Assembly (NCBI RefSeq): GCF_026626665.1
Contig: NZ_JAPNKE010000002.1
Coordinates: 4,937,168-5,001,167 of the forward strand
Length of the DNA stretch: 64,000 nt
DNA from: Nannocystis pusilla
GTDB lineage: Bacteria > Myxococcota_A > Polyangia > Nannocystales > Nannocystaceae
Reading direction: 5' to 3'
Shown piece by piece: positions 10,360 through 14,933 of the stretch. The notes below the pieces were generated by a model, which saw only the letters and a program-made list of their open reading frames with translations, searched no databases and was not told the DNA's origin. The position numbers and the translations under genes are program-made. Position 1 is the stretch's first letter. Every line of letters begins with the position of its first letter.

Positions 10360-10678
10360 TGCCCGGGATGCTATGCCAACCCGGGGCCTCGCGGGGCGCG
10401 CGGGGCTCGTGAACTAGCGCGTGGTCTCGCCCGGATCATGCGCGGCCACGAGCCACGAGTCCGCATCCTCGGGCGTGCGCCGGAGCGCGCAGTCACGCGC
10501 TGTCAAATTCGTCTCGCGGGCGGCGCCCGGCGGGTACGCGAGCGGCGCGACCTGCACAGTTATTCAGCCCGCGCGAGCCCGTGGGCGGCCTCGTAGGGCC
10601 CTGAATTCCCCGAGTTGTTGCCCCCGCGGCGCCCGATCTGATAGCGCCGCCCAGGTGCGCAGCAGCAAGAACCGCCGG

Positions 10679-12191
10679 ATGGCCACGGGCCGGCGCCGGA
10701 CCTCCAAGCGGACCGAGGGCCTGCGCGCGTGGCTCGGCCTGCAGACGTCCGGCCGCCCGGCGACGCGGATGACCCGCAACCGGCGGATGACCGAGGAGCA
10801 GCGGCAGAAGGCCGCCAAGGCCTACGTCGACCCGGTCGAGCGGAAGACCCGCAACCGCACCGTCGCGCTGCTGATGCTGCTCGCGGTCGTCAACCTCTAC
10901 GTGTTCGTGTGGCGCGAGGGCACCAGCGTGCTCGAGCTCGGGGCGCCGCGCGCCGCCGCCATCGTCGAGCACGACGACCGCGGCCACGGCCCGCTCGGCG
11001 CCTTCGCCGAGCCGCCGGAGACGGCCTGCAGCGGCGACCCGGTGCGGATCTTCGAGGGCCTGAACGACCAGATCCACCAGGCCACCGCGCTCGACAAGGG
11101 CCGCACGCTGCGCCTCGCGCTGCTCGAGCTCGGCGTCGCCGCGACGGAGATCGACGCGCTCGAGGCCGCCTTGCGCCCGACCATCGACCTCGGCCTGGTC
11201 GCCGGGACAGGTGCCCCGCTGCGCCTCGCCACCGACCGCCACGGCGCGATCCTCGCGGTGGAGATCGAGCAAGCCGAGGGTCGGCTGCTGCAGGCCTGCC
11301 GCGCCGGCGGACAGGCCGGCATCACGGTCCGCGCGATCCAGCACCCGCCGGTCAGCGACGTCGTCGCCGTCCACCTCGAGCTCGGGCCCGACGCCGACCT
11401 GCGCGCCGCCGTGGTCGAGGCCGGCGAGCGGCCTGAACTCGCGGACAGGATCGCCGCGGCGCTCGCGTTCGAGGTCGACCTCGTCGCCGACGCCCGCCCG
11501 CGCGACCGCATCGACCTCGTCATCGAGCGCCGCTTCCTCGGCAAGCAGTTCCACCGCTACGGCAGCCTGCTGGCGGTGCGCTTCCGCGGCGAGGCCGGCC
11601 GCTTCGCCGCGTTCCGCTTCCAGACCGGCGGCGGCCAGGCGGCCTACTTCGACGCCGAGGGCAAGCCGGTGCGCCGCACCCTGCTGCGCTCGCCGCTGGC
11701 CTTCCACGCGCTCCAGCCCGGCGCGCGCCATGATGCCGCCCTCGGTCGAGGTCGTGGCCGGCCGCGCCGGCGCGCTCTACCGCCGCCCCGAGGGCGCCCC
11801 CGTGGTCGCGCTCGGCGACGGCGTGGTCCGCTCCCTCGGCGAGCAAGGCGACGCCGGCCTGGTCCTCGAGCTCGCCTACGAGGACGGCGTGGTCGCCCGC
11901 TGCGCCCACCTCTCGCGCACGATCGGCGACCTCCGCCCCGGCCAGCCCGTGCGCCAGGGCCAGCTCGTCGGCCTCGCGGGCCACTCCGGCAAGACCGCGA
12001 CCGACCGCGTCCGCCTCGAGCTGTGGCGCGAGGAGCACGGCGAGGCGACCGCGCTCGACCCGCTGCTGCTGGCCGCCGGCGGCGACCGCCGCCCCGCCGT
12101 GGTCGGCGCCCCGCTCAAGGGCACCACGCTCGAGCGCTTCAAGCTCGAGATCGCCCCGTGGCAGAAGGCCCTGCGCGAGACGCCGGGCTGA
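10679..12191 (+). CDS. Degenerate M23-family (LytM/MepM-like) membrane-anchored protein, one frameshift
   Basis: A basic N-terminus is followed by a membrane anchor at about residues 61-77 (VALLMLLAVVNLYVFVW). A central region resembles the pre-catalytic domain of MepM-type endopeptidases (FLGKQFHRYGSLLAVRFRGE, AAYFDAEGKPVRRTLLRSPL). After a frameshift near 11730 comes a LytM-like beta fold: GAPVVALGDGVVRSLGEQG, ARCAHLSRTIGDLRPGQPVR, QGQLVGLAGHSGKTATDRVR. The zinc ligands are missing: the HxxxD region reads GALYRRPEG and the HxH position reads RVRLEL. It is therefore probably an EnvC-like non-catalytic regulator of cell-wall hydrolases. The 10679 start is one choice; 10769 is an alternative. 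Confidence 0.7.
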
Positions 12192-12258
12192 CCGTTCGGG
12201 CATGCCTCTCGGGACATGCTCTCGGGGCCATGCTCTTTACGACATGTCCTTGAGGCGT
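12190..12258. repeat. Palindromic repeat cluster starting at a stop codon
   Basis: GACCGTTCGGGCATGCCTCTCGGGACATGCTCTCGGGGCCATGCTCTTTACGACATGTCC region: about four tandem half-sites or copies of the dispersed palindrome. It begins within the TGA stop of the M23-like gene (TGACCGTTCGG), as does the cluster at 41614. No gene is supported in 12259-12528. Confidence 0.8.
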
Positions 12259-14166: not shown

Positions 14167-14933
14167 TCACATCATCGCCACGTCGAGGAGCATCCCCTTG
14201 AGCGCCTCGTACTCGCCCATCATCGACAGGTCGTGCTCGGTCAGGTTGAACACGCCGACGGGCGCGCCGTCGCGGTCGAGGATGATGACGTCGCGGTAGA
14301 CCACCTCCCACTGCGTCCACGCGTCGACCTCGGCGACGTCTTGCAGCAGCGGGATGAAGCGGCCGCTCACCATCTGCGGGATCCCGGACTCGAAGCCGAT
14401 CCCGTTCACGCCCAGCAGCGCGATCCCCAGGTCCGGGAATTCGCCGCTCAGCTCCATCTGCAGGTCGTTCAGGTAGCCGAACTGGCTACGGCAATAGCCT
14501 CAAGTCGCGTGGGCGAAGTACCAGCCCGACACCTGGCCCGCGTAGTCGCTGCGGGCGCGCGTCTGCTCGTAGGTCGCCGAGTCGGGGTTCACGTCGACGA
14601 GCGCCCAGTCGGGCGCCGGACCGCCCGGCTCGCCGGTGGTCTCGGTGTCGGTGTCGCCGGTCGTCGAGGTCGAGGTCGAGGTCGTCGCCATCGGCCCGGT
14701 CGTCGGCTCGCCGCTGGTCGGCGCCTCGCCGGTGCTGGTCGTTTGGACAGGTCCGGAAGTACCTGTCCCCGTGGTCATGTCGGTGCTGCCCGCGGTCGGC
14801 CCGCCGGTCTCGCTCTCGGGGCCGCCGGAGGTCGAGCCGGTCTGGCCGCCCGAGCTGCCCGTCGAGTCCGAGCCGCCCCGGGGCAGCCTGCGAGCGCGAG
14901 CGCGCACAAGTAGAAGGATGGTCGTCGGTTCAC
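14167..14933 (-). CDS. Candidate selenoprotein: secreted redoxin-like lipoprotein with in-frame UGA (U-x-x-C)
   Basis: The reading frame runs through a UGA at 14502-14500. Before it: a Ser/Thr/Gly linker, then DWALVDVNPDSATYEQTRAR and VSGWYFAHAT. After it, in the same frame: GYCRSQFGYLNDLQ, FPDLGIALLGVNGIGFESG and VIILDRDGAPVGVFNLTEHD. The UGA occupies the first Cys position of a thioredoxin-type C-x-x-C (HAT-U-GYC), in the context (strand, W-Y-F, active site, helix) expected for a TlpA/AhpC-type redoxin. A hairpin beginning 10 nt after the UGA fits the bacterial SECIS pattern. The N-terminus is reconstructed: GTG at 14933 gives a lipoprotein signal (LCALALAGC), joined by a one-base shift near 14880 in CCCCGGGG. 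If UGA is read as stop, both halves are useless, which favours recoding. Selenocysteine machinery would lie elsewhere. Confidence 0.72.
14473..14502 (-). promoter_or_regulatory. UGA codon with putative bacterial SECIS hairpin
   Basis: On the minus strand the order is TGA, GGCTATTGCC, GTAGCC-AGTTC-GGCTAC. The last part is a perfect 6-bp stem with a 5-nt loop. The loop begins 16 nt after the UGA, its second base is G, and a U follows, all within published rules for bacterial SECIS elements (loop distance 16-37 nt, G among the first two loop bases). An alternative weaker hairpin, GGCTA-TTGCCG-TAGCC, starts immediately after the UGA. Confidence 0.65.
14744..14778. repeat. Dispersed palindrome inside the lipoprotein linker
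   Basis: TGGACAGGTCCGGAAGTACC followed by TGTCCCCG: GGACAGGT pairs with ACCTGTCC around CCGGAAGT (perfect 8-bp arms). It lies in the Ser/Thr-rich linker of the redoxin and is translated without breaking the frame. Confidence 0.6.

Follow-up and report, generated by a model that had tools for sequence, protein, structure and literature searches.

A TUGYCR-motif thioredoxin-fold gene with a probable UGA selenocysteine codon in Nannocystis pusilla

The window, meaning the whole stretch of 64,000 nucleotides that was analysed, comes from the soil myxobacterium Nannocystis pusilla (contig NZ_JAPNKE010000002.1, positions 4,937,168 to 5,001,167 of the forward strand) and sits in a 12-Mb, two-contig genome with a completeness of 80%. 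The features of the gene under study are collected in the table. An in-frame TGA interrupts the thioredoxin-fold domain and encodes the putative U of a T-U-G-Y-C-R motif. A sequence-only reading of this DNA had described a frame that continues across the TGA, with the TGA in the place of the first Cys of a redoxin C-x-x-C, and both points are confirmed. The frame is open and homologous to its relatives on both sides (VSGWYFAHAT-(UGA)-GYCRSQFGYL) and runs to a final stop at 14169-14167. The nearest relatives found are Nannocystis species, with a protein identity of 95-97% to the closest three; the DNA of Nannocystis sp. RBIL2 is 96% identical across 3.5 kb.

Features of the TUGYCR-motif gene, in window coordinates
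Feature	Position	Strand	Details
TUGYCR-motif thioredoxin-fold (seleno)protein gene	14167..14933	-	GTG start, TGA stop
Signal peptide and lipobox, (M)NRRPSFYLCALALAGC	14883..14933	-	lipobox Cys codon 14885-14883
Missing-base site	14876..14879	-	GGGG here; GGAGG/GGGGG in N. exedens / Nannocystis sp. RBIL2
Ser/Thr/Gly-rich low-complexity linker	14614..14875 (limits approximate)	-	translation
Thioredoxin-fold domain, NCBIfam NF053656	14170..14613	-	profile match
In-frame TGA, probable Sec codon, first position of U-x-x-C	14500..14502	-	homolog alignment
TGC codon, partner Cys of U-x-x-C	14491..14493	-	invariant in protein alignment
Predicted bacterial SECIS hairpin	14473..14489	-	stem 14489-14484 / 14478-14473, loop AGUUC 14483-14479

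The domain matches the NCBIfam profile NF053656 with 201.9 bits (193.6 bits in the whole-genome search) against a cut-off of 100, and covers positions 2-145 of the 146 in the profile. All 30 alignment members tested also match this profile. Residues that are invariant in the domain include U/C45, C48, Q51, N77, Q98, W109, R114-D115 and N130, a partial list numbered on a 155-residue construct.

The hairpin GUAGCC-AGUUC-GGCUAC begins 10 nt past the UGA and has a perfect 6-bp stem. Its loop of 5 nt has G as the second base and lies 16 nt from the UGA, exactly the geometry that the sequence-only reading had given. The minimum-energy structure of a 46-nt stretch includes the hairpin (-13.8 kcal/mol, RNAfold). 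Published limits for a bSECIS are a loop of 3-9 nt, a stem of 4-16 bp, a G in loop positions 1-2, a distance of 16-37 nt from the UGA and an MFE <= -7.5 kcal/mol (PMC13188914); the hairpin lies within all of them. The folding z-score of the hairpin region is only -1.85, and an Rfam scan of the region returned no SECIS-type match. Since a comparable hairpin follows 49 of the 1036 TGA triplets in the window (about 5%, counting both strands and any frame), the hairpin alone is weak evidence, and its geometry was dropped as a proof of SECIS by itself.

Homologs were taken from 6 Nannocystis loci in GTDB genomes and from further loci in 379 sampled Myxococcota genomes. At the aligned Sec position, 59 of the 74 Myxococcota homologs have TGA, 14 have a Cys codon (TGC/TGT) and 1 has GCC, so homologs with Cys or TGA at this site, which had been proposed as a check of the selenoprotein reading, do exist. 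TAA and TAG are absent from the site among these homologs.

The hairpin follows the TGA. A full six-pair stem, with G-U allowed, is found in 54/59 TGA genes versus 0/14 Cys genes. When synonymous codons were shuffled 2000 times with the protein sequences held fixed, the TGA genes had a mean of 5.76 paired positions compared with 3.55 +/- 0.15 in the shuffles (0/2000 as high), while the Cys genes did not differ from theirs (2.57 versus 2.32 +/- 0.18). Among 46 distinct TGA sequences, double-sided changes occur in five of the six base pairs and fill 25 cells against 5.6 after shuffling. Neither the paired fraction nor the covariation score was reached in any of 500 shuffles, and sliding the partner by 1-3 columns removes the covariation signal. 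The loop of the TGA genes always starts with AG. The Arg, Ser or Gly codon before the loop is CGT, AGT or GGT in these genes, despite the dominance of CGC in the Arg usage of the domain, and it switches to CGC or CGA exactly where the 3' arm changes: CGU..UAC becomes CGC..CGC in three loci (L055, L076 and L077) and CGA..UUC in L044. Such tracking of the other arm by synonymous Arg codons is what a SECIS element would predict, unlike protein conservation alone. Three TGA homologs (L086, L087 and L088, from genomes G236, G160 and G327) are without the exact standard 6-bp stem. This subgroup has the motif ATUT[YF]CATQVVHL and retains a G-containing loop; the geometry of its SECIS may be another one.

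The genes for selenocysteine use, which the sequence-only reading had expected elsewhere in the genome, were all found. The selB match has 258 bits, above the cut-off, and those of selA and selD have 413.7 and 312.5 bits; the three genes lie inside 7 kb. The tRNA-Sec scores 70.8 bits (gathering 47) and has the anticodon TCA (UCA). The selD gene (contig C2, 5640073-5640924, outside the window) appears to have an in-frame TGA of its own where Sec or Cys usually stands (FARGGG-TGA-AAKLRLGDL), which makes SelD itself a probable selenoprotein. Myxococcota are regarded as largely aerobic, and Sec use is spread widely in the phylum, with selA in 240 of the 379 sampled genomes. Among the genomes with a TGA-form redoxin the share rises to 48/51 (Fisher p = 9e-8), and the three TGA-form genomes without selA are only 78-83% complete.

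Because of the TGA/Cys conservation, the hairpin covariation and the Sec machinery, the selenoprotein reading is well supported, and the UGA in the domain is almost certainly a Sec codon. Very probably the locus carries an NF053656 selenoprotein gene with SelB-dependent Sec insertion, whose product would be an exported redox lipoprotein in the relatives. Sequence conservation, SECIS covariation, the machinery, family membership and the lipoprotein signal of relatives are directly supported; Sec insertion, export, redox activity and the choice of substrate are predictions from them. SelB carrying Sec-tRNA(UCA) would bind the hairpin 16 nt past the UGA, so that Sec would come first in the redox motif U-G-Y-C. 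In the relatives, where the protein is intact, a Ser/Thr-rich linker joins the lipoprotein signal peptide to the thioredoxin-fold domain. This anatomy suggests export and a lipid anchor in the cell envelope, where the linker could hold the domain off the membrane. Sec would then be the nucleophile that attacks an oxidised substrate (disulfide or peroxide), and the Cys three positions further along would be the partner that resolves it as a selenylsulfide. We infer a putative extracytoplasmic thiol/selenol oxidoreductase function.

The type of enzyme is less clear than the recoding. In a reading that is compatible with the one preferred here, the Sec protein would be a peroxidase of the Prx/GPx type rather than a TlpA/thioredoxin-like thiol-disulfide enzyme; this has a reasonable though lesser chance of being right. 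The weak Pfam matches point toward peroxidases. The domain scores 17.9 bits with AhpC-TSA (PF00578), below the cut-off of 26, and 12.2 bits with Redoxin (PF08534; E = 0.16), below the cut-off of 26.6, and among 30 family members such weak matches number 15 for AhpC-TSA and 5 for Redoxin. The conserved segment Y/W-R-D-V-x-x-x-D also has what we take to be a resemblance to the conserved Arg strand of peroxiredoxins. Against a peroxidase, the best credible matches in a PDB sequence search are thiol:disulfide interchange proteins of the TlpA/DsbE-like kind, all of them marginal (2lrn, E = 0.065; 3gl3, E = 0.17). The top match of that search, 6xi1 (E = 4e-5), consisted of several weak repeats, none of which passed singly, and was discarded. 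An AlphaFold2 model built with seven near-identical sequences has a pLDDT of 44.8 and is too poor for a fold search or for a choice between TlpA-like and peroxidase-like chemistry. The Sec-containing Prx are tabulated with a TxxU motif (PMC13188914), whereas Sec here comes first in a U-x-x-C with an invariant second Cys.

The N-terminal end of the gene bears on whether the selenoprotein is functional in this strain. The GTG start at 14933 and the lipobox (MNRRPSFYLCALALAGC; FYLCALALAGC) lie in a frame shifted by one base from that of the linker and the domain. Relative to five Nannocystis homologs in the alignment, one base is missing near 14879-14876: the window reads CCGG-GGCGG, against CCGGAGGCGG in N. 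exedens and CCGGGGGCGG in strain RBIL2. In those homologs (L021-L025) and in a second N. exedens copy (L026), the signal peptide, linker and domain form a single frame, and by a crude pattern a lipobox signal is in frame with the domain at 23 of 35 loci overall. The lipoprotein with a Thr/Ser linker that the sequence-only reading had described is thus found in the relatives, but in this assembly its start and lipobox are out of frame.

Other frames in the assembly also look broken. A second TUGYCR redoxin copy (contig C2, 11667257-11667574, outside the window) retains its TGA and SECIS hairpin, and one lost base breaks its frame right after the TGA. The selD gene appears to change frame mid-gene. 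Within the window, an M23 peptidase gene on the + strand (10421-12253 and 11211-12191) has an apparent frame change near 11660, which appears to reflect either assembly indel errors or a broken gene. It is possible to read the redoxin gene as a pseudogene in this strain, with the TGA and the hairpin left over from a selenoprotein that is functional in its relatives, and the deletion at the lipobox and the similar frameshift of the paralog would fit. This is unlikely, as the domain keeps an identity of 95-97% with its nearest Nannocystis orthologs and has no other lesion, and the apparent frameshifts in selD and the M23 peptidase gene, together with a completeness of 80% in two contigs, point to assembly indels. 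Since the relatives are in frame, the paralog, selD and the M23 gene look broken, and the assembly is 80% complete, an assembly indel is the likelier explanation of the signal-peptide frameshift than a dead gene.

Another reading takes the TGA as a true stop, with one protein of the linker and half of the domain and a second, ATG-started C-terminal piece (14457-14167). This follows the standard code and is what ORF finders give (14949-14500 and 14457-14167). It is very improbable, because in 59 homologs the stop would split the active site of a conserved thioredoxin-fold domain, and the retention of TGA with no TAA or TAG, the strict covariation of the hairpin and the single continuous Cys forms all oppose it. 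An ordinary Cys redoxin whose TGC or TGT was misread as TGA can practically be dismissed: the assembly does appear to contain indel errors, but 59 homologs overall have the TGA, it is present in each of the six Nannocystis loci that were retrieved independently, and its coupling to the hairpin cannot come from error.

With Sec as the preferred reading of the UGA, the gene would be a clear case of UGA recoding in a predatory aerobe, for a protein that relatives would export as a lipoprotein. Selenoproteins are rarely retained by aerobic bacteria (PMC13188914), and the counts here contrast with this view, given selA in 240 of 379 Myxococcota genomes and the TGA form of NF053656 in 51. With its matched Sec and Cys homologs, hairpin-bearing and hairpin-free, the family would make a good system for asking why Sec persists outside the cytoplasm. 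A more tentative suggestion, for which the odds are fairly balanced but somewhat against, is that these genes represent a phylum-wide set of envelope-anchored, selenium-dependent redox lipoproteins in mostly aerobic myxobacteria, with repeated exchange of Sec and Cys and accompanying gain or loss of the SECIS. If true, such a family would show that aerobes retain Sec in an oxygen-exposed exported protein. A literature search found no paper describing a phylum-wide family of this kind, and none on the TUGYCR motif, Nannocystis selenoproteins or Myxococcota selenocysteine. In a 2026 review of prokaryotic selenoproteomes, Nannocystis and Myxococcota are absent by name (PMC13188914).

The closest known system is NF053656 itself (redoxin_TUGYCR, "TUGYCR motif thioredoxin fold (seleno)protein"), which has the same domain and the same TUGYCR motif. 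The sequence-only reading had proposed a new selenoprotein, and this does not hold, as the NCBI entry already names the motif and calls the protein a (seleno)protein. The locus is a well-supported further member and not a new family; its domain is no different, and the Nannocystis copy differs by the frameshifted signal peptide in the assembly. The TlpA/ResA/DsbE-like thiol:disulfide interchange proteins have the CxxC motif and the approximate domain layout in common with it and are likewise extracytoplasmic redoxins, but the sequence match to them is only marginal and Sec probably takes the place of the first Cys here. Other UxxC selenoproteins include the "Redoxin family protein" (PF08534), SaoT (NF040730) and the HUIPC motif protein (NF047660) (PMC13188914). 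They share the thioredoxin-like fold, a bacterial SECIS and a U-x-x-C motif that begins with Sec, but they are NCBIfam or Pfam entries separate from NF053656, and the match of the present domain to PF08534 is weak.
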